DNA from: Lepidostoma basale
Taxonomy: Eukaryota > Arthropoda > Insecta > Trichoptera > Lepidostomatidae
Length of the DNA: 64,000 bases
NCBI GenBank assembly: GCA_022606425.2
Contig: JAHDVF020000761.1
Coordinates: forward strand, 682,001 to 746,000
Direction of reading: 5' to 3'
Position numbers and translations under genes: made by a program. Shown here in pieces: positions 2,318-63,990 of the stretch (its first letter is position 1; each line of letters opens with the position of its first letter). Under the pieces are notes generated by a model. It was not told where the DNA came from. It did no database searches and saw nothing but the letters and a program-made list of their open reading frames with translations.

Positions 2318-2353
2318 TATAATATCACAATTTCTTTTTATTCACTGCGAGTG

Positions 2354-2397
2354 TCGCGACAGCTGTTTCGCCAACCGATGTTGGCATCATCAGGTGT
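2354..2397 (-). ncRNA. Hammerhead-like ribozyme motif, family A
   Basis: The minus strand reads box I CTGATGA (2387-2393), one extra T, helix II GCCAAC/GTTGGC closed by an ATCG loop, box II GAAAC (2365-2369), then the palindrome ACAGCTGT and C (cleavage triplet GTC). Stem I flanks (ACAC and GCGA) pair poorly here. Core boxes match the hammerhead consensus except for the extra T after box I. Activity is untested. Confidence 0.65.
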
Positions 2398-2429
2398 TAC
2401 AATAAACTTACAAAAAACAGTTTATTGTA

Positions 2430-2471
2430 ACACCTGAAGATGCCAGCATCGGTTGGCGAAAAGCTGTCGCG
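2430..2471 (+). ncRNA. Hammerhead-like ribozyme motif, family A, damaged box II flank
   Basis: Box I is CTGAAGA (2434-2440). Helix II is GCCAGC/GTTGGC with one G.T pair. Box II reads GAAAAGCTGTC instead of GAAACAGCTGTC, so the stem III palindrome has lost two bases. It is the mirror partner of the motif at 2354-2397. Confidence 0.55.
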
Positions 2472-2529
2472 ACACTCACAGTGAATAAAAAGAAATTGTG
2501 ATATTATAACAGTGTTTTAAATTTTAACA

Positions 2530-3447
2530 GCAATAAAATATTTTATTAATATTTTTAATTTGTTCATTTGGTAAAACAACGAACAAGGCAATAATTTCTA
2601 AAAAGATATTACCATTAATCTTTAAAGTTTAAGACATCTATTGAGAACAGGTAAAATATAATAAATATATTATATAATAAAAGGAACGCATGAGAGATGG
2701 TTCGACATTAGGAATACAAGATACTCTCCAAAGTCAAGAGTATTTGTCTTTTGACGGTACTTACACGAATATGAAATACATCGATCTCCGAAGCGATCAT
2801 GTTCAGCAGTTTGATTGCTCTCCCCACCGGCATCACCAGAGGCAGGTTGGTTCGGCATTCTGGGAGATAAAACAGTCTGTGCTGACGCTGTCGAAGATAC
2901 CCATCCGGAACATAAAGAATAATTGATTCAATTGCGCGGTATCTTCAAAATGTGTCGTTGAATGTCCAAATGCCGACTAAATTTTAATAATTTTCTAGAA
3001 ATAATCAGTATGACCCAAGTATGGGGCTAGTTACACCTAGAACCATCTTTAACCCAAACATTCCATGGAAATGCAAATTCCCCGAAGACATTAAACATTA
3101 CAAAGTTTTAAAGATTTTTAATATTTTTAAATAAATATACTTATTTTCACACATGATGTACTGTACAATTCATATTTTTTTTTTAAAGACAAGAATTTAA
3201 ATCAATGATATTAGAAATAATTTTACAATCGTCAATATAGGCAGAAAATAGCTCATTATTATGAAGAAGGAATCTGAACTCCATGCCTCCGAGAACAGGA
3301 GCCTAGCGTTCTGTTCCCTAGACTACCACAAGATTAAAAATTCTATTATATATTTATAAAAAAAACGTTATTATTATAGTTAAACAGCAAACATTTGATA
3401 ATATCCCTGGCACGGCAAAATATGTCGCTAATATAAAATTCTGGTTT
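2530..3447. other. Unique intronic sequence without a recognised gene
   Basis: Mostly AT-rich. A GC-richer island at about 2690-2910 has a minus-strand open frame and a GTAAGT, but no domain and no convincing acceptor, so it is not called as an exon. Confidence 0.5.
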
Positions 3448-4170
3448 CTGATTTTGAAAATTTGGTTTGGTTCATGTGGTGCTCCTGTAAATTTGAAGAT
3501 ATTTCGTGTATAAATGAATTGTTTTGGTCAATTTAATTGTTGCCGCACTTTATAATAGTTAATTGTGACACGTAATACGTTTGTAATGTTTTGCTGTTAA
3601 AATTATATTCGTTTTTTCGTTTTTATAAAGAATTTTGACAGGTGTAAAAATATTTTTTTCATTTGTTCCAATGACAATTTGAATAATTCCTTCAATATTA
3701 TTTTAAAGTTCTTGCTGGTTAAGTGCCTAATAACAGCTAATTTAAAAAACGGCGGATACGTGTAACATAAATTAAATAAACACAAAAGTCCGGATCGTCC
3801 ATGTCAACATGTGCAACATCGAAAAAAAAACATTATGTGTTATTACATTATATGTTAAATAAAAAAAAAACTGTGGATACGTGGAACATAAATTAAATAG
3901 ACAATATGTGCACCACCTAAATTTTGTTATTTTATTTTATATCATTGTATTTTATATTATTTGTTTTAGATTTATTTTGTGGGTATTGGACGATCGAAGT
4001 GTGCGCGGGAGATGCCTATTGGTGGCGATGAGGTTCGCAACCCATCACACCGTGTCTCCCGCGGGGCGAAAAGAGAAGGATGGAGTGCCGCATCAGTAAA
4101 AGTGTGACAGTCCATTCTTTCTGCCTACCCTTTCGGGGAGACGGCGTGATGGTTAGTTAGTTAGTTAGTT
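3448..4170 (+). mobile_element. Non-autonomous LINE derivative with the GTTA-tail 3' end (longest copy)
   Basis: About 720 bp, beginning at TCTGATTTTGAAAATTTGG and ending in (GTTA)n. The last ~90 bp (AAAGTGTGACAGTCCATTC to GGCGTGATGG) are the same as the 3' end of the protein-coding GTTA LINE copies, while the upstream body is unrelated to that protein. Copies at 32870, 48032, 51291, 53370 and 62744 share the body. A 60- to 70-residue hydrophobic open frame (3881-4099) recurs in several copies, but start and length vary, so I treat it as incidental. Shared 3' ends suggest mobilisation by the LINE's enzyme. Confidence 0.75.
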
Positions 4171-4554
4171 ATATAATATATTATAGAATCAAACTACAAA
4201 AAAGCTGACGTTCATTGATCAATATGAAACATTAAAAAATTGAATCCAATTAATAACATAAAATAAAAATATATTAAATTATATTTTGGCATCTAAAAAC
4301 TAGGTTATTTTCTCTTGAAAGAAATGTAAATCGTTTTACTGCTAATATTTGGCTCTTTTGACTAATAAATTTGCCGACCTATGACGATTCCTTTTAAGAT
4401 GATTATCGCTTTGTTTTCGGTACTTACTGAGGATTTGATAAATCTACCCAAGCGAATAAAATCTTAGATTATTTATTCCAAAGAAAAGTAATTATAACCT
4501 AAGATAATCCATTGTTTTGGAGGAAACACTTTGATATTTCAACATTATCTAAAT

Positions 4555-4690
4555 GAAAAACTTTGTTATGAATATCACAATTGATTATATTTAGTCGCGA
4601 CAGCTGTTTCGCTAACCGATGCTAACATCGGTAAGCGAAACAGCTGTCACGACTAAATATTCGCGACTAAATGTAATATTCATAATAAAG
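4555..4690. repeat. Palindrome derived from a family A hammerhead element
   Basis: The arms TTAGTCGCGACAGCTGTTTC and their complement meet at about 4625. Helix II and GAAACAGCTGTC are present on both sides, but box I (CTGATGA) is missing from each because the junction lies inside helix II. Both arms end in family A sequence (AATATCACAATT). It cannot be a working ribozyme as it stands. Confidence 0.65.
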
Positions 4691-4815
4691 TTTCTCAGTT
4701 AAACAGTTAGTAATTGTAACCGCATGTAGAATAGGAAAATTTAAATGATTTCCACGTTATTGCATTTTTATTTTCCTGGAAAATAATTAATAGGAATGAA
4801 ATGGGATATTTTGGT

Positions 4816-5903
4816 TTTATCTGATTCTTCTTCTTCTTGTGCCGTGTCAGGTCCCCCCGACGTTGGCGATCACTCCGGCGAAAACCTCCCTGTCCTGCGC
4901 TGCCCGAAACAGGTCATCCACCGTCCTCATTCCGGTCCACTCTCTAATGTTGCGCAGCCAGGACATCTGTCTTCTGCCAACTCCCCGTCTTCCCTCTATC
5001 TTGCCCTCCAATATAAGTCGGAGGAGGCGGTACTTTTCTCCACGCAGCACGTGACCCAAATATGAGACCTTTTTCACTTTGACATTCGACAACAGCTCTC
5101 TCTTGGCTCCGGCTCTCCTAAGTACTTCGACGTTACTGACCTTTTCGGTCCAAGGTATACGAAGCATTCTTCTGTGTATCCACATTTCGAATGCTTCTAA
5201 CCGATTCATTACGTTCACTTTTAGAGTCCATGTTTCACTTCCGTATAATAGAGCTGACCATATGTAAGCTTTTATCATTCTTTGTCGAAGTTTAAGATTC
5301 AAATTATCGTCACAGAAGAAGGGTCTCATCTTATTAAATGCAGCACGTGCAACTTCTATTCTACATTTCACTTCTGTATCTGGGTCGAGTGTTTTAGTAA
5401 TGATACTGCCGAGGTATTTAAACTGGTCAACCATTTCGATATTTACTCCTTTTAGTCGCAAAGATGATCCAGAATAATCAAGTCTTCCAAACGACATCCA
5501 CTTGGTCTTAGCGACATTTATTGTCAGACCCAATTCTTCTCCAGCCGTGTCAATCTTATTTAGGAGCTCCTGGAGATCAGGTATACTTTCAGTCAACATG
5601 ACTGTATCGTCAGCATATCTGATATTATTTATAACGACTCCATTGATCTTCACTCCAAGGCTAGAGTTTTCTAGAGTTCTTTGGAAAACTTTATTGGAGT
5701 ACAGATTAAACAATAGAGGTGACAGAATACAACCTTGTCGAACTCCTCTTTGTATAGCTATAGCCTCTGTATTTCCACTTCCATATCTGATCTTTGCCGT
5801 TTGACACCAGTAGAGGTTTCTTATGAAATTCAGGTCTTTGGAGTCAATGTTACAGTCTTTGAGCATCTCCATGAGTGTCGTGTGCCTTACCCTTTATCTG
5901 ATT
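4816..5903 (-). mobile_element. Recent 5'-truncated RTE-type LINE copy with 11-bp target-site duplication
   Basis: TTTATCTGATT occurs directly at both ends (4816-4826 and 5893-5903), an 11-bp target-site duplication. Between them, on the minus strand, lies a reverse-transcriptase fragment that ends in a (GAA)n tail next to the duplication. The uninterrupted frame and perfect duplication point to a young insertion. It was truncated at its 5' end on arrival, which is usual for LINEs. Confidence 0.9.
4847..5872 (-). CDS. Partial reverse transcriptase of an RTE-like LINE (341 codons open)
   Basis: This is the C-terminal half of a LINE polyprotein, which copies element RNA into DNA at the insertion site. 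The fingers/palm motif RGVRQGCILSPLLFNLY is at about residues 42-58 and the catalytic YADD at 86-89. FKYLGS is at 151-156, LLYGSETW at 208-215, and the RTE-like tail MWIHRRMLRIPW at 230-241, followed by a GRR-rich stretch and the natural stop. The N-terminal endonuclease and the start of the RT are absent. The first ATG is not the true start, since the frame is open to the truncation point near 5892. All visible RT motifs are intact, but without endonuclease and promoter the copy cannot move alone. A decayed relative is at 23910-24240. Confidence 0.9.
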   Translation of the reverse strand: MEMLKDCNIDSKDLNFIRNLYWCQTAKIRYGSGNTEAIAIQRGVRQGCILSPLLFNLYSNKVFQRTLENSSLGVKINGVVINNIRYADDTVMLTESIPDLQELLNKIDTAGEELGLTINVAKTKWMSFGRLDYSGSSLRLKGVNIEMVDQFKYLGSIITKTLDPDTEVKCRIEVARAAFNKMRPFFCDDNLNLKLRQRMIKAYIWSALLYGSETWTLKVNVMNRLEAFEMWIHRRMLRIPWTEKVSNVEVLRRAGAKRELLSNVKVKKVSYLGHVLRGEKYRLLRLILEGKIEGRRGVGRRQMSWLRNIREWTGMRTVDDLFRAAQDREVFAGVIANVGGT

Positions 5904-9005: not shown

Positions 9006-9960
9006 CAAGTTTTTTTTTGTATTTTATTTTATTTATAATTGAAAAGGCAACGAGTCGTCCCCGTGAAATATATGAATTCGAGAAAACTTTTTATAAATTA
9101 CAAAAAAATTTACGAAGTATATTAAAAACAATAAATAACTGACAATTAGTTTACAACATTATTAATCTTTTCAGTATCATCGATTTTGGCTTGTTGGCTG
9201 TATTTTATTTACATATCTCGTTTAATTGAAAATGTCGAAGAGAGGTTTTAAAGGAGAAAAATAAACTAAGAAAGGTTACTTTGTTATTAAAAGTCTCAGT
9301 TGTCAACTAGAAATAGACTCCAAGATATATTTATATTAATTGATGAGTTCGCTGTTAGCAAAATACATTCAGCCCTTTTTAGATGTGATTTTTAAATACA
9401 AAAAAAAGACTCAATGGTGAGTCTGGAATATTAAAATTTCAAATTCAGTGAAATGTTTACTCGGCAATTCGGTATTCCCCGAAAAATGTAATTGAAGTAA
9501 TAAAAAATCCAAGTACAAAAAGTCAAAAGTAAACCGAGTACAATTTTAATTGAAAAATAATTTGTTCCAACGCCATCTTACAAAGCGATTCAAAGGGAGT
9601 AATTTGAAGATATAAAAACGAAATTACAAAACGAATCCATTGTTCCAGCGCAATTTGTTTAAATAAGGCAAAACGGAATTTATTTATGGAAATTTCCCTA
9701 ACTAAAGGACGATAATATATTCGGTGAAGACATCAAAGGGACTTGCAAAATATTAAGAAGAGGGTGCCCCTTATTCCCAAAGCTTTTACATTATCTTATA
9801 ACAACTGTGGACGGTTTATTTATATATTATTTACAGCATATAAAATGTAATTAACATTAGAGAAAACATGTTGGCATACCTTTATGGAGTGCCATAGAAA
9901 ATTTATGTTATTAAATCAAAAGAAAAATACATACATAAATATTTATTATGTAATATCTTA
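9006..9960. other. AT-rich intronic sequence, nothing recognised
   Basis: No repeat shared with the rest of the window and no convincing open frame. Confidence 0.5.
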
Positions 9961-9964
9961 CAAA

Positions 9965-10085
9965 TTTAATTTATAATAGTAAACATGATTGATTAATGGT
10001 TTTACTTGAATTTAATTTATATAAATTATATAAATTGTGACAAAATTGTTTAGCCTTGCGAGAGCATTCTCAAACTTCTACATAA
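9965..10085 (-). mobile_element. Single-arm hammerhead element, family F
   Basis: On the minus strand: TTTGAGAATGC, helix II, CGCAAGGC, then TAAACAATTTTGTC in place of GAAACAAATTTGTC, followed by the family F arm (ATTTATATAAATTA, AAACCA, CATGTTTACTATTA). Box II has lost its G. Confidence 0.55.
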
Positions 10086-10224
10086 TATCTTACAATTTTT
10101 ACGAAGCATTAAACAAATTAAATGATTTTTGATTTACCAAAAGCAAAAGTTTTTTGATAAAATGTGAAATTCCATAATGACGAATTTTTTCAAGAATTAA
10201 AATATTGATTTTTCGAACTAAACT

Positions 10225-10300
10225 ATTATTTTTTGTATCGTTCTCCCGATGATGAAGGTGTACAGAATGTCGAGAAAAATTATCTCGAAAGCAAAAAAAA
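10225..10300 (+). repeat. Remnant of a family D hammerhead element
   Basis: TTCTCCCGATGATGAAGGTG is present, followed by GTCGAGAAAAATTA. The helix II 3' strand and the GAAAC box between them are deleted, so it is an inactive relic. Confidence 0.6.
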
Positions 10301-10470
10301 AACACATTGTTTTAAATTCATAAAATTTTTTGTCAAATTCAATGATGTTATTTTAGAGAACTATTTTAACGTAGGGACCATTTCCAATTTTGAAAACATA
10401 CAAAAATTTAAAGATTTTTTTTCTATTGCTTTTTATTATTACACAATTATAAAAAAAAAAAACAATAAAA

Positions 10471-13140: not shown

Positions 13141-13311
13141 GAATTATAATAATATTGGTGAAAACCTTCGTTTTTTTGGAGTTAATTATTACATAGTAAA
13201 TATAAAAAAAGAGTAAAACCGAGAAAAACGACCAATCCTTTAAATATCAAATAATTACTGAAAAGATGATATTTTTCTATTAAATACTTCTACTAATTGT
13301 CTTTATTACGA

Positions 13312-13352
13312 CAGCGACCGATTTCGCCAAACTAGCTGGCATAGACAGACCG
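13312..13352 (-). ncRNA. Hammerhead-like motif, family C (diverged)
   Basis: On the minus strand: box I CTGTCTA, T, GCCAG/TTGGC helix, GAAATCGGTC, then GCTG. The box I G8 is changed to T, and the stem III palindrome ACCGGT is damaged. Other family C copies are at 21205, 28270, 38919, 50166 and 50413. Confidence 0.5.
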
Positions 13353-13714
13353 GACCAGTCGTGTAAAATGATATTATGAATCATAATAATTATGTTATCA
13401 TGAAGATTTGTTTAAAAATCATATAATTTTTTTTCACGTTAATTATACTTACGGAATCGATGCAAGAGCAGACACTGTCAGAACCAAAAATATAAATATT
13501 AAATGTAGCAGGAATGAGAACATTGGAACCTATTGTGGGGAGAACTGGAGGAGGCCTTTGTTCAGGAGTGGACGGGAATAGGCTGAGGAAGAAGAAGAAG
13601 AAGGTAGTAATAATATTATATAATTGAAATATCAGATATTCTTTGTACGGGTTTTTGTTCCCCTTTGACCACTTAAACATTTGTATAAAACTGAATAATA
13701 ATAAATGCATATTA

Positions 13715-13920
13715 ATTTATAATAGTAAACACGATTGTTAAGTGGTTTAATTTGGATTTAATTTATGTAAATTTTATAAATTGTGAAAAATTTGTTTCGC
13801 CTTGTGTGGGTATTCTCAAACTGTCTGGGCAGTTTGAGAATGCTCTCGCAAGGCGAAACAAATTTGTTTCAATTTATATAAATTAAATCCAAGTAAAACC
13901 ACTAAACTATAGTTAATAAT
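13715..13920. mobile_element. Palindromic hammerhead element, family F
   Basis: Two ~95-bp inverted arms (AAACACGATTGTTAAGTGG to TTGTTTCGCC, and the complement) meet at 13820-13832. Each centre-facing end carries GTTTGAGAATGC or its mirror, helix II, and on the plus strand GGCGAAACAAATTTGTT. The family F palindrome ACAAATTTGT is longer than in other families. Box I (TTGAGAA) departs from CTGANGA at two positions. Confidence 0.7.
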
Positions 13921-14384
13921 GGAGTTTTACAAAACTAATTCCTCAACCATCAACAATGCATATTTTTGATATTTTTATAATGTAAAAAAACGAAATATTT
14001 TCATTTAATATAATAAAATCGAATTTTCTAATTATCTTAAGATAGAAAAATAAATTAATTTTCTGTAGGTACTTATTATTTTAATTTAAATGAGAATCTC
14101 AGAAACGTTGAAAATAAGAAAGGTTAAATGAATAAATTTCAATATAAATTTGAAATTAATCAATCGCAAGTAATAGACTTGCAGTAATTTCCCTATTTAA
14201 ATAAAAAACATAATTGAATGATATTAAATTTACAATAAGAACGATTTTAATGCCATGAAAAGTAAATGAAGCGTGTTGTTTGATATTATTTAGTTACCAT
14301 AAGTCAGAAAACTGAATGGCTGAATGACTCTCAGTCATTTATTGTTTCTTGAACATTGATGTAAAACTCCATTTTAAATAATTA
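13921..14384. other. AT-rich sequence between ribozyme elements
   Basis: No gene. The last part (TGTAAAACTCCATTTTAAAT) belongs to the flank shared by family E elements. Confidence 0.5.
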
Positions 14385-14466
14385 ATAAAAATGAAAACGC
14401 CAGTTTTATAAAAGATTTATTCAATTTATGACATGTTTCATCATTCAAAAGCATTATCAAATGTAA
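14385..14466 (-). mobile_element. Single-arm hammerhead-like element, family E
   Basis: On the minus strand: TTTGATAATGC, a decayed helix II, then TGAAACATGTCATAAATTG and the family E arm. Family E recurs at 17690, 35700, 37575, 39870, 43680, 55665, 62290 and 63480. Its usual box I TTGATAA differs from the hammerhead consensus at two conserved positions. Confidence 0.55.
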
Positions 14467-15360: not shown

Positions 15361-15767
15361 ACGAAGATAAGTCAGCCCAGAAGAGGATTTAATATACGAG
15401 TATCCTTCGGCGAACTTTGCGGGATCCACGAACTTAACAAAAGAAAAACAGTACTGCAAGTATATAGAGAGCATCTCTGGTATAAGTTTTGCTGAAATGT
15501 AATAAATTGTTGTTTTTAAGTCATCTGCGAAGCTACGATCTAAAAATTGTAATAAATAGTATTTAATTAGTTATTTTCTTCATTCTGACAGGTTTCTGCA
15601 GTTTGCTGCTATATCGTTGCTGCAGAATATGGCAGCAAGCTATCAAAAGTGTTCGTAAAGAAAATGAAGAAATCAAGTGAAGTTATACTAAATATTTTTT
15701 CTGAAGATTTCTTTTTACGAATTTTTTTATGAATCAAACACTGTTTTTTCTACTGTTAAGTTTATTT

Positions 15768-15812
15768 TTCTCGACATGTTTCCATGGCTTTACACCCTCA
15801 TCATTGGGAGAA
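15768..15812 (-). ncRNA. Hammerhead-like motif, family D (helix II damaged)
   Basis: Stem I TTCTC/GAGAA is perfect and GAAACATGTC is intact (15773-15782). Box I is CCAATGA and helix II is mismatched, so activity is unlikely. Confidence 0.5.
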
Positions 15813-15833
15813 CGACATAAACGGTTTATATCG

Positions 15834-15877
15834 GTCTCCCGATGATGAATGTGTTAAACTTCGAAACGTGTCGAGAA
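15834..15877 (+). ncRNA. Hammerhead-like motif, family D
   Basis: Stem I GTCTC/GAGAA (one wobble), box I CCGATGA (U4 to C), extra T, a short GAA/TTC helix II, box II GAAACGTGTC, cleavage triplet GTC. The same U4-to-C change is seen in other D copies. Confidence 0.6.
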
Positions 15878-16269
15878 AAATAAATACAACAGTTATTCCC
15901 AATTAGTATATAGTACATTAAAAACTTTTCTCCTGTACAATCTAGCTAAAAAATAATAATACTACCTTCAACTTTTGTCACCTTTCCTATTAATGTAATC
16001 TACTTCCTGTTATTGTTTATCGTTTATAATTTATTATGTTTCATCGTTTTTGACTCAATACTATGTGAAATTGTTCCTTCCAATTACTGTTTTATTATTA
16101 TTATTATACTTTCCACCTTTATTTTTTTCTCCTATTAATAGTGACTAACCGTTCTTTTAATTAAAATATTTAGGTACCTGACTCAATTTCAGCAAGAACT
16201 TTAAAATTATATCAAAGAAATTATTCAAATTGACATAGGAACAAATATACATAAAGATTCGAAAAATCA

Positions 16270-16445
16270 CAAAAATTTGACATTTGACATATTATTGTAA
16301 CACCTGATGATGTCAACATAGGTTGATGAAACAGCTGTCGCGTAAAATAAAATACAATTGTGATACAAAATTTAACAGTTTAAAATGTTAAGGTATCATA
16401 GTTTTTCGGTCAAAACAATGGACTATTAAATTTAATAGTGTATAA
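16270..16445 (+). mobile_element. Single-arm hammerhead element, family A
   Basis: The A-type ribozyme module is followed by AAATACAATTGTGATAC, AATTTAACAG and GGTATCATAGTTTTTCGG. The same sequence occurs inverted at 36130-36280, with the ribozyme core nearly identical. Confidence 0.7.
16300..16343 (+). ncRNA. Hammerhead-like ribozyme motif, family A, well preserved
   Basis: Stem I ACAC/GCGT (one A.C mismatch), box I CTGATGA (16304-16310), extra T, helix II TCAAC/GTTGA, box II GAAACAGCTGTC (16328-16339). The ACAGCTGT palindrome replaces a normal stem III hairpin, and a self-dimer could supply stem III. Confidence 0.65.
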
Positions 16446-17215: not shown

Positions 17216-17689
17216 ACAGTAATTGGGTTCAAGCAACCTGTTGTATGCATTAAAAAAAAAAAGAAAAAAACATCAGACAAATGAAATGAATAAGATAATG
17301 ATGATAATAATAAACGAGGTTATGACTTTTTGTTAATATTCTTCAATATTGATGAACAAAATACAATATACCAAAATCAGGATACTATTTGTTTCCATGA
17401 AAGGAGGAGCATTGAAAATACTTCATGAACCATTATTCAAATTAAGAACATAAATCAAATGAACTGACAGTTATGGCCCATGAATACATTTCTAATACCT
17501 CTATGTATTATTTGTTATTTTAAGTACAATCCATAGCGAGAAACAAAAACTCAATTTCCTTTATAAAATTTCGTGACACCTGGACGTTGCAATTTTCCGA
17601 TTAGGTACGGAAGATGCAATTTCCCCCTCTATTTTTTCTCTTATACTGTGCCAGTGGCGCCCAGAATCTATTAACCGCAAATATTAGAT

Positions 17690-17895
17690 TGTTTATAATA
17701 AATACTAATGAAAACGTCTGTTTTCTAGAAGTTTTATTTTAGTTTATGGCAATGACATGTTCCTTATAAGGCATTATCAAATGCAAAATATTTTGTAATG
17801 TCTTAGAAAGGCGCACATGTCATTCTCATAAACTACAATACTAGTTCTAGAGAATAGAGGTTTTCATCCGTGTAAATTATTTAATGTGTGGTTTT
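17690..17895. mobile_element. Palindromic hammerhead-like element, family E
   Basis: The arms AATGAAAACGTCTGTTTTCT...TTTATGGCAATGACATG and their complement meet at about 17800. The left core has AAGGCATTATCAAATG (box I TTGATAA read on minus). The right core has TTAGAAAGGCGCACATGTC, with GAAAC changed to GCAC. Confidence 0.65.
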
Positions 17896-17999
17896 ACATC
17901 ATTGTTTAAGAAATAATAAATTGTTTAAATTTAAAAAATAATTTACAAATTTTTAAACAGAATTTTAAAATATATTAAATAATTTTAAAAATATTCATA

Positions 18000-20895: not shown

Positions 20896-21144
20896 ATTTA
20901 CATCGATTTGGCTCGCGCTGTAATGATGTAAAGAGCGATTCAGCAAAATGAAATGAAATGATTAACATTATTCTTCTCGTATTTTTTTGCTCATATTTGA
21001 AATATTTTTCTTTCATAGATTCGTCCAATGTCTTAGAATAATGTTTGATGACCCATTTTGGGGGTTATTTATCTGCTTTGTATTCTTTTGTACATCGGTT
21101 ATTATTTTTAAAATCTCGTTATATATTTATAACTTTAATTCATT

Positions 21145-21365
21145 AAATAATAATTAAATAAAACGATATTTTTTTAACAGCTTCCACTTTTGTCTTTATT
21201 CCGACAGCGACCGGTTTCGCCAGGCTCGCTGGCATCGATAGACTGGTGCCAGCGAGCCTGGTGAAACCGGTTGCTGTCGAAATTATGACAAAGGTATAAG
21301 TAGTTAAAAAACAACGTTTTATTGAATTATTATTTAAAGTGAACTTCCACCAAGAGATCATTTGA
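21145..21365. mobile_element. Palindromic hammerhead element, family C
   Basis: The arms AAACGATATTTTTTTAACAG, CTTCCACTTTTGTCTTTATT and their complements meet at about 21246. The left half has a full C-type module. The right half has lost box I at the junction but keeps helix II and GAAACCGGT. Confidence 0.75.
21205..21245 (-). ncRNA. Hammerhead-like ribozyme motif, family C
   Basis: Stem I CAGT/GCTG (four pairs, one G.T), box I CTATCGA, extra T, helix II GCCAG/CTGGC with CGAGC loop, box II GAAACCGGTC. The other C copies have CTGTCGA. Both depart from CTGANGA at A6. Confidence 0.6.
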
Positions 21366-21539
21366 TTATCTTAAATTTATTAAATAAGGGTTGAAACTTA
21401 TTCTTAATATTGAATTGTTCTCTTTCATTTTATTATAGTAAATTAGTTTCAAATTTACATACAACAAATATTGTTGTTTTAGAGTTCAATGAAACACCAT
21501 TAAATTTTTTATTGATGGATGAGGTATTAGTTTTGTAAA

Positions 21540-21705
21540 ACTCCATATTAATTAATAATAGTAAACACGATTGTTTAGTGGTTTTACTTGGATTTAGTTT
21601 AGAATGCCCTCGCAAGGCGAAACAAATTTGTCACAATTTATATATATTAAATCCAAGTATAACCACTAAACAATCGTGTTTACTACCATTAATTAATTTT
21701 TTTGT
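21540..21705. mobile_element. Palindromic hammerhead element, family F, one core deleted
   Basis: The arm GTAAACACGATTGTTTAGTGG is mirrored by CCACTAAACAATCGTGTTTAC. The right core is GAATGCCCTCGC, AAGGCGAAACAAATTTGTC. The left core and box I are missing at the junction. Confidence 0.7.
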
Positions 21706-22904
21706 AGAAAATGGTATTTAAGGACAACAAAGTTGGGCGAAACAGCTGTCACTTTAATTTTGTTGAAAAATATGCAAGAGGAAATTAAGAAAAAGGCGTT
21801 GAAGGACGGGGACGCCTGAGGATCCTCTGGGAGGTGATGGCAATCGCCGCAACAGAGAAATTTTTATTGATCACGGGAATGGGCCGGTCAGAGGGTTGAT
21901 TGTGTGGAATCATTTGCGGACGATTGACACAGTCAAATATGGTGATTGTTTAAAAATAAACTAGAGAGATTAAAGCAATATAATTATCTCTTAATGACAT
22001 AAAATAAACCAATTTCCATACAAGTTATCTTAAGAAGAGCACGCATCTTCCAATAGGTGAACACATTGAAAAGTTAAGACAATAACTTGGACCATGTAAT
22101 GAATAACATTTGTGCTCGTTGTCTCAATTAATCGTCAGGGTCATATAGGTAATATAAATACTCGATAACATCTTTTTTTGGCAAAGAACTTTCGACTTTC
22201 TATGTCATTATCATTAAGCTTGTCTATCTTTGCTTAAGTCAATTATGTTAGTTCCTTTTAGCAACGATAACATAGAAATGAGAAATAGAATTCCACATAC
22301 GAGTAATGGAGTCCAAATATTATCTTTGCTTTAATATAACAGATCAATAAAGTGATTTGATTTTAGTCGTTTCCATTCGCGTATAGGTTTGTCTCCACGA
22401 TACGTGAACCACAAATGTACGGATACATCAACGGATTCAGCTGTATGTATACGTCGAGCGAAGTAATCCAGAAATCGTAGTGTCGGACAGATGACGGATT
22501 TGTGTGTCGTGGTGCGATTATGTTGTCTGGAGTGGCAAGATGGATGTGTTTTTGGCTTTGTGTTGACACGGAATAATGACGTTTAATATTAGCCATCGCA
22601 AAAAGGTGTCCGCCCTTAATTATGCTTGGAATTTCTACAGGGACTGACAAAAAGGGAGCCTTTTACCGCATCCTGTGGTAGATATTGAATTTAGGATCAC
22701 AATAGATGAACTTTTTGTGAGAAAAGTCCATAGAAAGTGTTTCAATACGGCAAGAACTTTATAAATAAATAATAAATGGGTGCTTATCATTTTTAATATA
22801 AATATGACATTGTATTGTAGTTATACTAACCTTATAATGGATAATTTAACAATATTTTTATATGGTGACAAATATAAAATATAATGAAAAATAAAATAAA
22901 ATTT
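21706..22904. other. Unique intronic sequence
   Basis: No gene recognised. A GC-richer, repeat-poor block at 22370-22650 has a 95-codon minus-strand frame without a known domain. A short RTE-like GRRGRPRILWE scrap is possible at 21785-21830. Confidence 0.4.
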
Positions 22905-23345: not shown

Positions 23346-23909
23346 CAATAAAAAAATAAAATTATCATCATAGAACTTGGAGACATCTTTAATAATCTAT
23401 TTATATCTCTAATTTTTACTGGAATTACTAATTTTATGAATCGTTTATTAGCACAATTATTCACATGGTTTAATTAACAAAATATGAAAGGTTTTGCAAA
23501 GTTGTGTCATATTTGTTGAATGAGTGACGAAAAACTTGTAAAAGTGATTTTGTATTAATACCCAATGAGACCCAGAAGTATACTATAATAATAGGTAGAC
23601 CTAAGCTGCATCGACTAATTGGAATTATAGATGATTGTCACACTGTGGGCGAATACTGTCACAGATTCTAGAACCACAACGGATAGATCAGGTTAGGTAA
23701 AACCCATGCTGGATTCTAGCGCTATTACTAGCGCTTCTAGAAAATACAATGAACAATTGATAAAATAAGTTTTTTTATTTCACTATTTTTTTTAGTTTTG
23801 ACCGATTTTGACGGCTTACTGCAATCTTCTTGTAGATGGCCGAGCTTCCAAACCTGGTTAATCAAGCAGAATTCTAATCATTAATCTGATATATACTAAA
23901 GATTCAGAT

Positions 23910-32777: not shown

Positions 32778-32869
32778 CTGAAAGGAGAAAAACATAAATG
32801 AGTTTTTGATAATTTTATTTTAGACAATTCATTGTTTTGACCGAAACACAATAATGCTTTTAGATTATT

Positions 32870-43675: not shown

Positions 43676-43679
43676 TTAA

Positions 43680-43770
43680 ATAATTAATATAATACAAATG
43701 AGAATGTGCGCTTCCTAGAAGATTAATTATAGTTTATGGGAATAACACGTTTAGCCTTTTTAAGGCTTTG
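43680..43770 (-). mobile_element. Single-arm family E element
   Basis: CTTCATATTAAATAATTAAT, CCTAGAAGATTAATTATAGT and GTTTAGCCTTTTTAAGGC are E arm and core. The TATCAAATG end is replaced by a microsatellite. Confidence 0.55.
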
Positions 43771-49965: not shown

Positions 49966-50165
49966 AGATGAACGCAAAGCGAACTTATAATATCAACAAA
50001 TATTTCTACGATGATTTAATCGTGCGTTTAGAAAAACGTCTAAAAACTGTCGTAAAGTAAAATAAATGTGATATAAAACAAAGTTTTTGCATTAACAATT
50101 ATAAAAAAATAATAATTAAATAAAACGATGTTTTTTAACTACTTCCACTTTTGTCTTTATTTAGA

Positions 50166-50206
50166 CAGCGACCGGTTTCGCCAGGCTCGCTGGCATCGAC
50201 AGACTG
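50166..50206 (-). ncRNA. Hammerhead-like ribozyme motif, family C, intact
   Basis: CAGT/GCTG stem I, CTGTCGA (50196-50202), T, GCCAG-CGAGC-CTGGC helix II, GAAACCGGTC (50170-50179) with the ACCGGT palindrome. Box I has T where A6 is expected. Confidence 0.6.
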
Positions 50207-50412
50207 GTAACACTATTGTAAACTTAGTCCTTTCTTATACATACAGATCAGGGGTGGTAAACATGATTCTATACAAAAATAATCTTCAAATATTTATGTA
50301 AAATTTTCTGAGTTTAACTATTGGTATTACAGGTATTCTTGGAGGTTCGTATTTAATACAATGGGTTCTAGTTTTTATTATCTCTTACATATTAAGTTTA
50401 CAATAGTTTCAC

Positions 50413-50453
50413 CAGTCTGTCGATGCCAGCGAGCCTGGCGAAACCGGTCGCTG
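50413..50453 (+). ncRNA. Hammerhead-like ribozyme motif, family C, intact
   Basis: Identical in the 41-nt core to its partner at 50166-50206, on the other strand. Confidence 0.6.
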
Positions 50454-50659
50454 TCTAAATAAAGACAAAAGTGGAAGTAGTTAAAAAACATCGTTTTATT
50501 TAATTATTATTTAAAATGAACTTCCATCAAGAGATTTCAGTAAAAACATTTGATTATATAAAAGAATATTAAATAAAAAATTAAATATATTTTATAAAAA
50601 AATATTAAAATAAAATAGAAAAGTGCAAAAATACAAAATCAATGAATACATAAAAAATA

Positions 50660-50905
50660 AAATGATGGTTTTTGGCGTTAACACCGTGGAATTCCATTGT
50701 AACTTGGAATAGAATTAACATCACTGTTTTCATTACACTTATATTTTTATGAAATAAAAATATCAATCACATGTTTCAGAGTTGACCTTCATCCTCAGAT
50801 ATAAATTTATATGGAGGTCACCTCCGAAACATGATGAGACTGATATTTTTATTCTATTTAATTAATAAAAGTGGAATAAAAACGGTGATGTTAATTTTAT
50901 TAAAA
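50660..50905. mobile_element. Palindromic hammerhead element, family B variant
   Basis: GGCGTTAACACCGTGGAATTCC is the outer end. The arms AATTAACATCACTGTTTTCA and complement meet at about 50807. The left module on minus (50768-50803) has CTGAGGA and TGAAACATG. The right module (50812-50835) has GGAGGTCACCTCC, GAAACATGATG, but no box I. Confidence 0.7.
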
Positions 50906-51114
50906 AAACAATTAAGTTGAATCATAGGGATTGATCCTCTTGTCCTACAGCTCAGGAGGTTAAGAGATTTCGATTAAAAATTAAAAATTTTCTTTTATGT
51001 ATATAAACTAGCTTCTTGAAGAAACGTTTTCATTTACATTAAATACTTGACATTTAAATTTTTCTTAAAAGCTAATATTAAAAAATTAAATTAAACTCTT
51101 TTTTAATAAGAATT

Positions 51115-51290: not shown

Positions 51291-51806
51291 ATAATTTCTT
51301 CAATATTATTTTAAAGTTCTTGCTGGTTAAGTGCCTAATTACAGCTTATTTAAAAAAAACGGTGGATACGTGTAACATAAATTAAATAAACACAAAAGTC
51401 CAGATCGTCCATGTCAACATGTGCAACATCGAAAAAAAACATTGTGTTATTACATTATGTGCTTAATTAAAAAAAAACGGTGGATTCGTGTAACATAAAT
51501 TAAATAGACAATATGTGCACCATCTTAAAAGATCATTTTGTGTTAAATTATTTTTATTTTGTTATTTTATTTTATATCGTTGTATTTTATATTATTTGTT
51601 TTAGATTTATTTTGTGGGTGTTGGACGATCGAAGTGTGCGCGGGAGATGCCTATTGGTGGCGATGAGGTTCGCAACCCATCACACCGCGTCTCCCGCGGA
51701 GCGAAAAGAGAAGGATGGAGTGCCGCATCAGTAAAAGTGTGACAGTCCATTCTTTCTGCCTACCCTTTCGGGGAGACGGCGTGATGATTAGTTAGTTAGT
51801 TAGTTA
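51291..51806 (+). mobile_element. Non-autonomous GTTA-tail element with internal duplication
   Basis: Shares the body from TCTTCAATATTATTTTAAAG onward with the copy at 3448, and carries two successive versions of the GTGTAACATAAATTAAATA segment (about 51370 and 51490), as that copy does. It ends in (GTTA)n at 51786-51806. Confidence 0.8.
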
Positions 51807-51829
51807 TTTGTATACATTAAAAAAAACAA

Positions 51830-52050
51830 AATCTTTTATAATACTTTATATAAACTTTCTTACGAGTAAGTAGCGCCAATCAGTAACACTTTGCAGCCAG
51901 CTTCCTTAGGACTGTACACAAACTTAGTTTATAGCAAAACAGTTTGCGTATAGCCCTGAGGAGGTTCGCTACACAGTGAAACCGGTTGGCGTTACTTACT
52001 TATAATAAAGTGGTTTTTATACAAAGTATTAAAAAGTGTTTAATTAAATT
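51830..52050. mobile_element. Palindromic hammerhead-like element, family G
   Basis: AATACTTTATATAAACTTTC, AAGTAGCGCCAATCAG and the mirror GGCGTTACTTACTTATAATA enclose ~60 bp. The right module is fairly complete and the left has decayed. Confidence 0.6.
51953..51990 (+). ncRNA. Hammerhead-like motif, family G
   Basis: GCC/GGC stem I, CTGAGGA (51956-51962, matches CTGANGA), a poorly paired helix II region, GAAACCGGTT (51978-51987) giving a GTT cleavage triplet. The weak helix II makes function doubtful. Confidence 0.45.
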
Positions 52051-52059
52051 TTTAAGAAT

Positions 52060-52425
52060 GTCAAACCACAAGTATTGGCTTCTTACCGAAGTTTATAATT
52101 AACTCCATTAATATATTCAAGATGAGTAATTCATATCGATAAAAACAATACTTTTATAGAAGATGTAATCGCAGTAATATTTTTCGCGTTACTTGAATGT
52201 TATTTCAATGTTATGTTAATATGATTTGGCATGAAGTATTTTGAGTTCTTTCATCATTGTTCAAGAAATAATAAATTATGTTTAACTTGACTTTTATAAG
52301 GCGTTTCAGACACGTACGTCAATTCGTTTAAATCGATACAACTTAAGCCAAAAGTTTTCTCAATAGCACTGGTACAGAAATACTTGAGAAAATAAGGTAA
52401 ACGTAACGCGCGAAGGGTTCATGAA
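52060..52425. other. Intronic sequence; family E edge at 52240-52285
   Basis: TCATCATTGTTCAAGAAATA at about 52251 is the outer flank shared by E elements. Nothing else recognised. Confidence 0.45.
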
Positions 52426-53139: not shown

Positions 53140-53210
53140 TTTAATTATTATAAATACATACATGTTTCGGATACAGAAGCCCTTCATCAGGGTTGTGTAT
53201 ATACATTTTA
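53140..53210 (-). ncRNA. Hammerhead-like motif, family H
   Basis: On the minus strand: AACC, CTGATGA (53184-53190), AGGG...TCC as a three-pair helix II, GAAACATGTA (GTA is an allowed cleavage triplet). Box I and II are consensus. Stem I pairing is not evident. Confidence 0.5.
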
Positions 53211-53369: not shown

Positions 53370-54042
53370 TGATTTTGAAAATTTGGTTTGGTTCATATGG
53401 TGCTCCCGTCAATTTGGAGATATTTCGTGTATAAGTGAATTGTTTCGGTCAATTTGATTATTGCCGCTCTTTATGATAGTTATTTGTGACAAAAAAAACG
53501 TTTTTTTACTGTTTTGGTGTTAAAATTATATAAATTTTTTCGTTTATAAAAAGAATTTTGACAGCTGTAAAAATAAAATTTTCATTTGTTCCAATGACAA
53601 TTTGAATAAATTCTTCAATAATATTTTTAAGTTCTTGCTGGTGTTGGATTGTTTGAAGTGCCTGATTACAGTAAATTAAAAAAAAACTGTGGATAACGTG
53701 GAATAAAAATTAAATAAACACAAATGTCCGGATCGTCCAGCTGACGACAAGTGCACCATCTAAAATAACATTATGTGTTAAAGTATTTTTCTTTGTTATT
53801 TTATTTTATATCATTGTATTTTATATTATTTGTTTTAGATTTATTATGTAGACGTTGAACGATCGAAGTGTGCGCGGGAGATGCCTTTTGGTGGCGGTGA
53901 GGTTCGCAACCCATCACACCGCGTCTCTCGCGATGGCGAAAAGAGAAGGATGGAGTGCTGCATCGATTAAAGTGTGGCAGTCCATTTTTTCTGCCTACCC
54001 CTTCGGGGAGATGGCGTGATGGTTAGTTAGTTAGTTAGTTAG
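53370..54042 (+). mobile_element. Non-autonomous GTTA-tail element, long copy
   Basis: Aligns with 3448-4170 from TCTGATTTTGAAAATTTGG to the tail, with a ~50-bp difference in the middle. Its 3' end GTGTGGCAGTCCATTTTTTC to GGTTAGTTAGTTAG matches the coding LINE more closely than the other copies do. Confidence 0.85.
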
Positions 54043-55664: not shown

Positions 55665-55865
55665 TTTATAATTAATACGAATGAAAACATCTGTTTTCTA
55701 TATGTTTTATTATTGTTTATGGGAATGACATGTAATAACTCCTTTTTAGAGGATTATCAAATGCTTGATATAGTCCTAGAAAAACGTCATTCCCATAAAC
55801 TATATTAAAACTCCAGAAAACATATTTTCATTCGTATAAATGATTTCATATGGAGTTTTAAATTT
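55665..55865. mobile_element. Palindromic hammerhead-like element, family E
   Basis: TAATACGAATGAAAACATCTG...TTTATGGGAATGACATG and complement meet at about 55765. Outer end ATATGGAGTTTTAAATTTACC. Cores are decayed on both sides (TAGAGGATTATCAAATG, and CCTAGAAAAACGTC). Confidence 0.6.
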
Positions 55866-56854: not shown

Positions 56855-57415
56855 ATCATTGTTCAAGAAACAATTAACAAAGTATAATATTTCACCGATG
56901 GCGATGTCTAAATCAGTTTTCTCAACTCACGGGAATACGTGATATTTCCATTTATGTTGTATTGTATGTAAATAAAAAAAAATGCTTATAATAAAAAATA
57001 TTGGTTATTTTTTTATTTCACCTTTCAGTCCGCCACTGGCAAACTGGGAAATAAGGTTGGTAGACAAGGACAGCAAACTATTAGATCAGGTAGAGTGAAA
57101 ATGAGAGCAAAAGGCAGGGTGGCCGTTTTTTTGGTAATTGCCGATTTTCTCAAACGATATATTTCTTCCACTGTGATTTTCTAAAGCACCCGGGCAAAGC
57201 GGACAAATTCATTAAAATATTTTCGCCTCATGATATTTCCGTACTTTTATTAGAGAATTCGTGCAAACCCAAGAAATAAATTAAATATATATTTTTTTAT
57301 TATAATTCCAACATAACTTTTTTATAGGCTATCTCTAAAATCAGAAAAACATTTTTTGAGTTGAAATATAATAAAATAATGGCTCGTTTGGATATCTACA
57401 AATTATAAATAATCT
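56855..57415. other. Intronic sequence, nothing recognised
   Basis: A GC-richer patch at 57030-57240 without domain or repeat partner. Confidence 0.45.
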
Positions 57416-57463
57416 CGAATTTTTATGAATTAAAACACTGTTTTTCCACTTTTGAGTTTATTT

Positions 57464-57507
57464 TTCTCGACATGTTTCGAAGGCTTACACCTTCATCATC
57501 GGGAGAA
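57464..57507 (-). ncRNA. Hammerhead-like ribozyme motif, family D, complete stems
   Basis: On the minus strand: TTCTC, box I CCGATGA, T, GAAGG-TGTAAG-CCTTC, GAAACATGTC, GAGAA. Stem I (five pairs) and helix II (five pairs) are perfect. The only core change is C for U4. ACATGT is the stem III palindrome. Confidence 0.65.
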
Positions 57508-57534
57508 CGATATAAAATAGTTTTTTTTTTATCG

Positions 57535-57578
57535 TTCTTCCGATGATGAAAGTGTGAGCATTCGAAACATGCCGAGAA
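57535..57578 (+). ncRNA. Hammerhead-like motif, family D, cleavage triplet mutated
   Basis: CCGATGA (57540-57546), T, GAAAG/ATTC weak helix II, GAAACATGCC, GAGAA. GTC is changed to GCC, so cleavage is not expected. Confidence 0.5.
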
Positions 57579-57899
57579 ATATAAACTCAAAAGTGGAAAA
57601 AAACAGTAATTCATAAAAATTCGTCATTATGGAATTCCACAGTGTTAACGTCTTCAGTATATCTAAAATTAAAAATAGTCTTTTGTACCGACTACGTAAA
57701 CTTATAACCTTAATTGAACCACTATAATGTGTATATTATGTATATCGTGTGAATTACTATATACGGTCTATATTTCTTACTTAATATTTTAAAGTACTTA
57801 AAGCAGTTGCAATAAATTATATGTTTAAAGAGCGATATATGCTTTTAACAAAATTTTATTTTAAATAATGAAATTTAAAAAAAATCTAAATTCCTTTAT

Positions 57900-62084: not shown

Positions 62085-62205
62085 CCCGAGCTACCTCTCT
62101 CCCTGGCCCACTACCCTTCCCCGCTCCCCGCGCCCCAATCCCATCCCCAAATCTTCCCCCTCGTCCCCCTCTGCTTCCCGCACCCCTACACCCATCCCAC
62201 TTGGT
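62085..62205 (+). repeat. C-rich pyrimidine tract
   Basis: About 120 bp composed almost wholly of C and T (CTACCCTTCCCCGCTCCCCG and similar), unlike anything else in the window. Confidence 0.8.
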
Positions 62206-62289
62206 TAGGTGTTACATTTTCTAGTCATTTGAATTCATTTCCGTACATCTGAATTCACGTATCTCTCTCTACGATGGTTCAATACCATC

Positions 62290-62590
62290 ACAACCTCCAT
62301 ATTAAATAGTTAATATAAATAAAAACTTCTGTCTTCTAGGAGTTTTATATGGAATGACATATTTCCCCCTTCTAAGGCATTATCAAATGTGTCGAGAAAA
62401 GAAATTTATATACCCGAGTTAGTGTAACAGTAACACTAACTTCGGTATAAAAACGATCCTGCACTTGTTTCTCGCCACATTTCATATTGTATATAAGGGC
62501 GAAACATGTCATTCCATTTAAAACTTAATAAAACTCCTAGAAGACATACGAGTACGTTTTCATTTATATTAATAATCAAATTGTACACAG
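62290..62590. mobile_element. Palindromic family E element with a long loop
   Basis: The arms TATAAATAAAAACTTCTGTC, TATATGGAATGACATATTTC and complement are separated by ~110 bp. The left core (minus) has TTGATAA, T, GCCTT/AGGGG, GAAATATGTC. The right core has AGGGCGAAACATGTCATTCC but lacks box I. The loop has a small inverted repeat, AGTGTAACAGTAACACT. Confidence 0.65.
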
Positions 62591-62691
62591 TAATTATGTT
62601 CAAATGACCAGTTATATTTAAAAAAATCATTAAGCATTGAAAGTTAATTATGCATTAGTGCTTTTTTCTGGATATATTTTACAATACTATA

Positions 62692-62743
62692 CATTAACTA
62701 ACTAACTAATTATTACGACATTTCCCCGTAGGGGTGGGCAGAA
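62692..62743 (-). mobile_element. 3' end scrap of a GTTA-LINE, minus strand
   Basis: TTAACTAACTAACTAATTATT and CCCCGTAGGGGTGGGCAGAAG are the tail and last codons. It abuts the next element directly. Confidence 0.7.
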
Positions 62744-63067
62744 GTTATTTAAAAGAACAGTGCATACGTGGAATATAAATTAAATAAACACAAAAGTCCG
62801 GATAGTCCATGTGCACCACCTATAAAAACATTGTGTTGTTTTATTTTATATCATTATATTTTACAGTATTTGTTTTAGATTTATTTTGTGGACGTTGGAC
62901 GATCGGAAAGCGCGGGAGATGCCTATTGGTGGCGATGAGGTTCGCAACCCATCACAACGCGTCTCCCGCGGGGGCGAAAAGAGAAGGATGGAGTGCCGCA
63001 TCGGTTAAAGTGTGGCAGTCTATTCTTTCTGCCTACCCCTTAGGCGACGGCGTAATGGTTAGTTAGT
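62744..63067 (+). mobile_element. Non-autonomous GTTA-tail element
   Basis: Body from ACAGTGCATACGTGGAATAT through GGTTCGCAACCCATCACAAC to TAATGGTTAGTTAG. The 3' end reads ...KVWQSILSAYPLG in the frame of the coding LINE, which shows the shared end clearly. Confidence 0.8.
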
Positions 63068-63478
63068 TTTTTTAAAATTATTTTTTGTACTATACATTAT
63101 TCATACAAAAAAATGTGATAAGCGATCCTCAAACAAAGTATTTAGTAACGGTCTGTGAGACTAAAGATTTCGCCATACAGTGAATTACTCGCAAAAAGAA
63201 AATATTGTCGTAATACAGAAACTAATGATTGTTTTTATTACATGAGACAGTACTTTAGGATGTGTAATCTTGTGAAATAATGTCATTATGGGGTGTATAG
63301 TAAGCCGTAAAAGAATTAATTCTTCTCACATGACATTTTTATTACTAAATCTTTGTGTGGAAAATAATAATTATGTTATATAATTTCTATGTGTATTACA
63401 TAGAAAATGTATTTAAAAAAATAAAATCCTCGCACAATAACTTATACAATAAGTTTATTAATTGATTTTTGAAAAATG
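63068..63478. other. AT-rich intronic sequence, nothing recognised
   Basis: No repeat partner or frame. Confidence 0.5.
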
Positions 63479-63479
63479 A

Positions 63480-63990
63480 TGTAAAACTCCATATTAAATA
63501 ATAAAAGCGAATAAAAACATCTGTTCTAGAAGTTTAATTACAGTTTATGGCAGCGGTTCTCAAAATGTGCTCCACGAAGTCCTGGATCTCCGTCAAGCGT
63601 CTTCTTCGACAAGCAGCATAATAAATTTACAATAATTCTAAAATCAAAATCTGCAAACAAACAATATCGCTTGTACAAGTAGGTATGTGGCGACTCGATA
63701 TTTGATACCCACGCAGCCGATTGTATGATTTTAGTTATATGATTATAAATAAATAGTAAATATGAAACTAGGTTAAGCTTATTTTAGGGCAATGTAAAAC
63801 ATAGGTGTTTCATAAGGGTTCCTTCGCCAAAAAAGTTATAATAGAAAACCTCTGGTTTATGGAAACGACACGTTTCGCCTTTTTAAAGTATTACATTTGA
63901 TAATTAAAAAGACGAAACAAGTCATTCACATTAAGTATAATAAAAGTTCTAGAAAACGGAAGTTTACTTTCGTATTAATTATGGAAGCTT
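63480..63990. mobile_element. Palindromic family E element split by a hAT MITE
   Basis: The left arm (GTAAAACTCCATATTAAATA, GTTCTAGAAGTTTAATTACA, GTTTATGG) stops at 63550 and resumes at 63855 with GTTTATGGAAACGACACGTTTCGCC. The cores GTATTACATTTGATAATTAA and GACGAAACAAGTCATTC follow, then the mirrored arm to 63990. Confidence 0.8.
63551..63854. mobile_element. hAT-type MITE with perfect 8-bp duplication
   Basis: Ends CAGCGGTTCTCAAA and (complement) CAGAGGTTTTCTA. GTTTATGG is directly repeated at 63543-63550 and 63855-63862, an 8-bp hAT-type duplication. 304 bp, no coding capacity. Its ends resemble the MITE at 18437-18647. Confidence 0.9.

Follow-up and report, generated by a model that had tools for sequence, protein, structure and literature searches.

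Hammerhead-bearing repeats in the Lepidostoma basale genome: probable end pieces of several Penelope-like element families

Hammerhead modules in the window and in the genome

The analyzed stretch of the caddisfly Lepidostoma basale (64,000 nucleotides, G000:C1394:682001-746000 of a 769-Mb assembly; hereafter, the window) contains numerous short modules with the plan of a minimal hammerhead ribozyme: a CTGANGA-like box, helix II, GAAAC, and a palindrome in the place of stem III. Many of them form inverted, head-to-head pairs. An independent sample of 200 kb from contig C1 brings the joint set to 264 kb. The modules are very probably pseudo-LTR (pLTR; LTR, long terminal repeat) pieces of several families of Penelope-like elements (PLEs) that fill this genome. 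Their relationship to Penelope is strongly supported by long genomic copies that carry the same hammerhead and pLTR together with the domains RVT_1, of reverse transcriptase (RT), and GIY-YIG. The modules of families B and C derive from coding PLEs, of which they are ends or truncated copies.

The shared plan, pointed out in the original prediction, occurs far above chance. The strict core, CTGANGAN{6,30}GAAAC (that is, CTGANGA, 6-30 bases, and GAAAC), is found seven times in the window against 0.46 expected, and none of 100 shuffled sequences reaches this number. A search that demands helix II and a palindrome at stem III returns 10 modules in the window if no more than one box mismatch is allowed (0-1 in 12 Markov shuffles) and 14 if two are tolerated (0-3 in shuffles). 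Allowing three mismatches yields 19 modules, the loosest of which are partly noise, as shuffles then give 0-7. Profiles built from the six proposed families A-F, all of which exist, detect 52 module copies between positions 2245 and 63988, many with decayed cores (17 copies of E, 9 of A, 8 each of C and D, and 5 each of B and F; overlapping matches on one strand were merged before counting).

At the genome scale, the strict core occurs 73,554 times, compared to 5,048 for a reversed-pattern control. The form with the C3-G8 pair, the extra A/T described below, and the GAAACATGTC end has 13,730 copies (control, 1), and the corresponding U3-A8, or E-type, form has 19,108 (control, 4). The window had been described as a dense field of ribozymes. 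It does hold many modules, but it is average for its genome and there is nothing special about the locus: the same profiles find 144 modules in the 200 kb of contig C1, and the genome rate predicts 6.1 strict cores per window, with seven present.

No hammerhead match was obtained in the window with Rfam at gathering and E-value settings; several of the best Rfam matches (mir-4637, MIR6438, rox1, and mir-H4) come from models for which the inverted pairs pass as hairpins. In viral contigs, three family patterns gave 2, 39, and 32 matches, of which 0, 11, and 0, respectively, form a helix II of 3 bp or longer. Ten of the 11 belong to a single variable sequence, and stem I pairing is absent from all 11; no credible viral relatives are thus seen.

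Distribution of the families along the window

The pLTR starts approximately 15 nt before a minimal type I hammerhead with a palindromic stem III and one extra A/U after A9. The hammerhead is followed by a short AT-rich segment that includes an AAAC-loop-GTTT hairpin. The 3' end falls either just before an ATG that opens a short frame or up to approximately 40 nt after it; the latter part is an optional tail.

Family A opens the series with a head-to-head pair at 2245-2586 (arms 2245-2403 on the minus and 2424-2586 on the plus strand), which has a tail on the left arm, the core CTGATGA-T-GCCAAC atcg GTTGGC-GAA-ACAGCTGT-C at 2358-2393 (-), and a shared 14-bp AT-rich flank, AATAAAATATTTTA, seen by eye. 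In the pair at 4501-4743 the arms are fused inside helix II with the loss of both boxes, and the tail is again on the left. The tail match of the pair at 33152-33306 is found at 32828-32860, beyond an interspersed-repeat copy that splits the pair near 33150. Single modules with tails lie at 16294-16429 (+; core 16304-16339) and 36115-36265 (-; core 36220-36255), and another module, with the box CTGATGA, at 28487-28581 (-). Family D is represented by head-to-head pairs at 15671-15893 (where a tail search was negative), 33334-33509 (left-arm tail), and 57358-57670 (core 57469-57502 (-), box CCGATGA), by a module at 24460-24600 (+), and by the locus 10163-10331, where a module (10233-10331, +) is preceded by a weak, 5'-truncated left arm (10163-10212, -).

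Two pLTRs of family B adjoin remnants of PLE coding sequence, contrary to the initial claim that the region lacks any. The first (23261-23348, +; core 23274-23304), with an ATG-starting tail, lies 167 bp past the remnant 22960-23094 (+), which corresponds to the C-terminal end of the GIY-YIG frame of genomic copy L131 (82% amino acid identity over 45 residues). The second, also with a tail (41416-41563, -), has a remnant 170 bp upstream (41733-41861, -; 58% identity to the L131 frame over 45 residues). The remaining B locus is a head-to-head pair at 50664-50948 (core 50773-50798, -). Family C includes an element at 50065-50555 that consists of an inverted pLTR, a piece of the 3' untranslated region, and a pLTR with a tail (cores 50170-50202 (-) and 50417-50449 (+)), head-to-head pairs at 21108-21378 (core 21209-21241, -) and 28167-28370, and modules at 13245-13353 (-) and 38915-38999 (+).

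The head-to-head pairs of family E are located at 17683-17906 (box TTGATAA), 39851-40041, 55665-55863, and 62285-62598, and at 63851-63988, almost at the window end, where the pair shares the locus 63471-63988 with a module at 63471-63553 (-). The single E modules are all on the minus strand (14351-14464, with a tail; 25132-25197, partial; 35713-35795; 37566-37675; 38107-38203; 43651-43769). Family F has a module at 9936-10079 (-), a head-to-head pair at 13709-13970 with the box TTGAGAA and the palindrome ACAAATTTGT, and a pair at 21544-21727 whose left arm has no hammerhead (core 21598-21632, +). Two loci carry further hammerheads: a head-to-head pair at 51826-52094 (core 51956-51987 (+), CTGAGGA-g, ACCGGT), and a core at 53159-53190 (-), CTGATGA-a-GGGCTTCTGTATCC-GAA-ACATGT, which belongs to a further family and resembles the GGGC...TCC cores at the genomic loci L090, L103, and L125.

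The placement of the modules in the introns of one gene was not borne out: the 10 open reading frames and the segment 56001-64000 (all six frames), which were the only parts of the window searched for exons, yielded none.

Structure of the hammerhead core

Read from the alignments, the boxes are CTGATGA in family A, CTGA(A/G)GA in B, CTGTCGA in C, CCGATGA in D, TTGATAA in E, and TTGAGAA in F. Compared with the type I core CUGANGA...GAAA...UH, families A and B conform, C and D deviate at one position, and E and F differ at the 3-8 pair, where the change is compensated (U3-A8). The box of D was considered as a misalignment and this was rejected, since most D copies agree on CCGATGA. With a GAAAC-N2-6-GTC end, the 264 kb contain C-G at the 3-8 pair in 10 cases, U-A in 12, U-G in three, and C-A in none; a box-reversed control gives 0, 1, 0, and 0, respectively. 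Of 100 listed U3-A8 places in the genome, the majority belong to family E, but others combine this core with a perfect helix II of another sequence (GGTTAC/GTAACC). The U3-A8 core is thus not confined to the E type and occurs with at least one more kind of helix II.

The additional base that follows box I, proposed initially, is genuine. Helix II is 3 bp or longer in 76 of 100 listed genomic strict-core places, and in 73 of these 76 exactly one base, always A or T (36 A and 37 T), separates box I from helix II; two cores have no such base and one has two. A similar distribution is seen when the cores of the window are combined with those of the fetched genomic stretches (58 in all): one A/T in 51, one G/C in three, none in two, and two bases in two.

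Pairing in helix II and stem I was compared with shuffled sequences. In 21 A-type cores, 88.9% of helix II cells are paired (81.6% in shuffles), 16 cells are changed on both sides (5.8 in shuffles), and the covariation score is 0.429 (0.256 in shuffles). None of 500 shuffles, which do not keep the relatedness of copies, reaches any of these values. Thus, helix II of family A is supported on three of five measures; the other two are within the shuffled range (118/500 and 104/500 as high). Slid versions of this helix pair far less than the true register. For stem I, 35 cores whose palindrome has 6 or 8 bases have on average 2.06 continuous pairs, against 0.94 when the 3' sides are shuffled; the highest of 1000 shuffles is 1.71, and 12 of the 35 cores have no pair at all.

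Coding copies of Penelope-like elements

A genome search for GIY-YIG produced 541 candidates, of which 150 were scored, with 62 matches at E <=0.001 among those. We examined 22 loci, namely 20 of the 62 matches and two later ones with 758-residue frames. In locus L134, RVT_1 (1.4e-13, residues 302-478) and GIY-YIG (6.6e-5, residues 651-734) reside in one stop-to-stop frame of 758 residues. A C-family hammerhead is located 389 bp past this frame on the same strand, a second one lies inverted before it, and the terminal inverted repeat is 449 bp long with 99.6% identity, the (TA)n tract left out. Locus L135 is 98.3% identical to L134. For the PLE RT, a PDB sequence search gave one weak match (E 0.0032). 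Long elements with RT and GIY-YIG, such as the original prediction had proposed to look for, do exist, bounded by the hammerhead of family C. The combined RT and GIY-YIG frame characteristic of PLEs is found in a genomic copy with C pLTRs, and the window modules keep only fragments of it. The C element at 50065-50555 is 90-96% identical to both ends of L134. The long copy sits in a (TA)n tract (near 432-600 and 3805-4045 of L134), and this setting is consistent with the AT-rich target preference of PLE endonucleases (PMC11167929).

In 14 of the 22 loci, a same-strand C or B pLTR follows the beginning of the GIY-YIG match at a distance of 550-700 bp; it belongs to family C in nine (L119-L122, L125, L126, and L133-L135) and to family B in five (L117, L127, and L129-L131). 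Loci L118, L123, L124, L128, and L132 do not have this arrangement. L123 contains a partial F arm approximately 500 bp past GIY-YIG on the same strand, and a coding partner of F is thus a single, doubtful case. The initial description of the modules as non-autonomous Penelope relatives therefore holds for the Penelope link, but not for the non-autonomous status of B and C. Coding pieces are rare throughout: at least three were detected in the 264 kb, against 196 modules.

Loci L114-L116 are probably not PLEs. Those at L114 (G000:C102:22626) and L116 (C729:135548) have GIY-YIG matches in long frames that are not PLE-like. The L114 frame reads like bacterial UvrC, so the assembly may contain a contig of a bacterial symbiont or contaminant.

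Arrangement of arms, tails, and flanks

Neighboring modules of one superfamily are mostly oriented head to head. The window contains 17 head-to-head, one tandem, and no tail-to-tail neighbors, and the independent 200 kb contain 44, nine, and six, respectively. In 34 of the 61 pairs the two arms, as delimited by the profiles, meet just 5' of the hammerhead with a gap of -6 to +12 bases. Overlaps of up to 43 bases are explained by fused arms or by profiles that match palindromic parts twice. On contig C1, three same-strand E-type cores (G000:C1:1464007, 1464276, and 1464545) are separated by exactly 269 bp, possibly a tandem array unlike the usual head-to-head pairs.

The tail is typically restricted to one arm. 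Reading the 17 window pairs by hand, we found it on exactly one arm in 15 (one of these judged across a repeat insertion and another at E 0.39), on both in none, and on neither in one; one pair is at the window edge. An automatic search at E 1 assigns a tail to exactly one arm in 13 of 17 window and 26 of 44 sample pairs, to both arms in 0 and 2, and to neither in 4 and 16. For all 61 pairs this gives 39, 2, and 20 (Fisher p 0.002), and both of the two-tailed pairs lie in compound loci. At E 0.1 the numbers are 11 and 23 with one tail, 0 and 1 with two, and 6 and 20 with none, or 34, 1, and 26 in total. In the better copies the ATG-starting tails encode MNFHQEISVKSFDY (family C), MLRYHSVSAKTMDY (A), MEFHSVNALTFNK (B/D), and MEFYIIVQETINN or MEFYKTNTSTINN (E/F). 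The tail frames of all four superfamilies are putative N-termini of PLE frames.

Other repeats in the window

An abundant interspersed repeat with an end of the GGCGTGATGGTTAGTTAGTTAG type is present at 3892-4173, 32871-33152, 51527-51808, and 53761-54042 and in related copies. A DUF4817 helix-turn-helix domain at 31947-32285 (+; 2.2e-11) probably belongs to another mobile element; its presence points to an arthropod. The RT frame at 4850-5893 (-), a remnant with RVT_1, was considered as a Penelope candidate and rejected: its best structure matches are of the LINE-1/R2 type, so it is a non-LTR retrotransposon. An RT remnant with RVT_1 is also found at 30835-31389 (+). The segment 40519-41081 consists of four tandem-like copies of a unit of approximately 145 bp.

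Proposed origin of short head-to-head copies

We infer a copying scheme by analogy with the Anolis element PAc, whose protein cleaves and extends both strands and starts internally at two RNA sites that define the tail (PMC11167929). Reverse transcription of the caddisfly elements would likewise start internally, just before or after the ATG and thus near the 5' end of the RNA, so that most insertions would be short and consist of the pLTR without coding sequence. Such a start would explain the excess of modules over coding pieces. If both target strands are primed, the two cDNAs would meet head to head just 5' of the hammerhead, and different start sites for the two arms would leave a tail on one of them only. 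The hammerhead is whole in many copies; the templates of these copies would therefore have been uncleaved RNA.

Other versions of the process can be considered. The authors of the 2013 study of Adineta vaga elements proposed self-priming on an antisense template (PMC3846280), a possible alternative that is compatible with the present data. A more speculative scenario, which we regard as rather unlikely, is that the palindromic stem III pairs two PLE RNAs as a double hammerhead that joins their 5' ends, and that the dimer sets up the head-to-head insertion. Each RNA would then template one arm from its own start site, hence the tail on one arm, and the hammerhead would be kept mainly as a dimerization and junction device. 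This role would explain the amplification of altered cores (U4C, A6U, and U3-A8), the last to 19,108 copies.

Read as pLTR pieces of PLEs, the modules suggest that an element with a near-5' start may generate many tiny "non-autonomous" repeats in close succession as its ordinary short product. Their abundance and mirror-image pairing give clues to PLE copying. Tens of thousands of copies with varied cores, paired arms, and two discrete 3' ends occur here beside long RT/GIY-YIG frames; therefore, template start, two-strand priming, and the need for the ribozyme can be tested statistically.

Alternative explanations

The genomic counts given above, with their controls, leave almost no room for chance or for simple hairpins misread as ribozymes. 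The overlap of the three-mismatch modules with shuffles, the silence of Rfam, and the poor monomer folds fit that explanation, but neither the helix II covariation of family A nor the stem I pairing does. Nor is it at all likely that the modules are foldback or MITE-type (miniature inverted-repeat) DNA transposons whose inverted ends resemble hammerheads by accident. Many copies are indeed near-palindromic inverted pairs of approximately 150-500 bp, but the same ends bound RT and GIY-YIG frames, which already contradicts this explanation for B and C; moreover, the optional tail often makes the pairs asymmetric, unpaired single arms exist, and a constant target-site duplication is not evident in the 58 of 61 pairs that have full flanks. 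Animal retrozymes, which are non-LTR retroelements with circular RNAs, share with the modules type I hammerheads, AT-richness, and the lack of coding sequence in most copies. Yet tandem neighbors account for only one of 18 in the window and nine of 59 in the sample, most neighbors being head to head, and the motifs are minimal. The tandem-array reading was rejected on these orientation counts, and a retrozyme origin is very improbable.

A number of observations weigh against the modules being pLTR pieces of PLEs, or against the proposed copying of such elements. When six window cores were folded as monomers, only three (A1, A2, and D1) formed helix II, and in these the box pairs with the palindrome rather than staying open; a fold better than that of most shuffled sequences was obtained for D1 (z -3.4) and A1 (z -2.1) only. 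Helix II covariation among 50 E-type cores stays within the shuffled range on every measure, which is the expected outcome if most of the copies are decayed descendants of a single source. The test for compensatory changes thus has a split outcome: helix II covaries in family A and stem I pairs more than shuffles do, but in E no covariation is seen. Only six of the 58 pairs reach a target-site duplication score of 11, compared to 3% of mismatched flanks, which is weakly above chance. The common start of the tails is partly a matter of construction, as the search patterns fix their first 10-12 bases, and no copy that joins a tail peptide to an RT/GIY-YIG frame was seen. The first Met of the 758-residue frame is at residue 159. 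L134 and L135 have similar left flanks (98.1% identity over 362 bp, to the edge of the fetched stretch); they may represent one duplicated insertion and are not counted as independent. The search for coding pieces used L134 and, from other loci, short C-terminal frames as queries, which makes the three pieces a lower bound. In PAc RNA data, reads at the hammerhead cleavage site are absent (PMC11167929). Finally, at none of the 22 GIY-YIG loci does a same-strand pLTR of family A, D, or E follow at 550-700 bp.

The last observation is also an argument for the strongest alternative, a plausible one that we nevertheless consider less probable: that A, D, and E are truly non-autonomous elements, similar to short interspersed elements (SINEs), and rely in trans on proteins encoded by families B and C. 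Since they have no coding partner among the 22 loci, these families may be non-autonomous. The same queries found no coding piece beside any of the 91 E modules in the 264 kb, and E-type cores are very numerous. On the other hand, the tails of E/F and A open with an ATG frame as in the other families, coding pieces are rare even beside families with coding members, the loci examined comprise only 20 of the 62 listed matches and two later ones, and L123 has its partial F arm past GIY-YIG.

Comparison with known systems

The PLE type of element is already known. The closest analogs are Pen2 and Pen3 of A. vaga and PAc of Anolis, which share with the caddisfly elements an RT and GIY-YIG frame, pLTRs, an inverted head-to-head pLTR, a tail on one arm, and truncated copies. 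The PLEs of A. vaga have inverted pLTRs, most commonly head to head, one of them with a 31-bp tail, and the pLTR reaches the first codons (PMC3846280). PAc also has a minimal hammerhead in its pLTR, assigned in our case by sequence and pairing, and hammerhead mutants of PAc show unchanged insertion (PMC11167929). In contrast to Pen2/Pen3 and PAc, the caddisfly genome contains very many pLTR-only pairs, and the palindromic stem III and the extra A/U extend across several families.

Minimal and dimeric type I hammerheads of PLEs were reportedly described by Cervera and de la Pena in 2014 and by Lunse et al. in 2017. Together with the repeat-type hammerhead of Aedes, which has a palindromic stem III (Perreault et al. 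2011), they resemble the modules in being of type I and repeat-associated, with a stem III that is very short or palindromic and suited to dimers. The single extra A/U before helix II, present here in 73 of 76 cores, may set the modules apart from these minimal PLE hammerheads. Many animal genomes are reported to contain minimal hammerheads by the thousand, for the most part scattered over non-coding regions, and the role of the hammerhead in PLEs is called a mystery (PMC7761336). The U3-A8 covariation has natural precedents: the 2011 study gives several examples and reports a reduced in vitro activity of U4C (PMC3088659). The compensated core-pair swap of E and F is of the same kind, with 19,108 motifs here instead of several.

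Short Penelope elements without coding sequence, nonautonomous and prominent in some lineages, occur in heliconiine butterflies, and that study does not mention hammerheads (PMC6685494). Animal retrozymes, too, carry type I hammerheads in non-coding retroelements. They are described as short tandem repeats of 150-450 bp with canonical hammerheads (PMC7229834), whereas the caddisfly modules are arranged head to head and their hammerheads are minimal.

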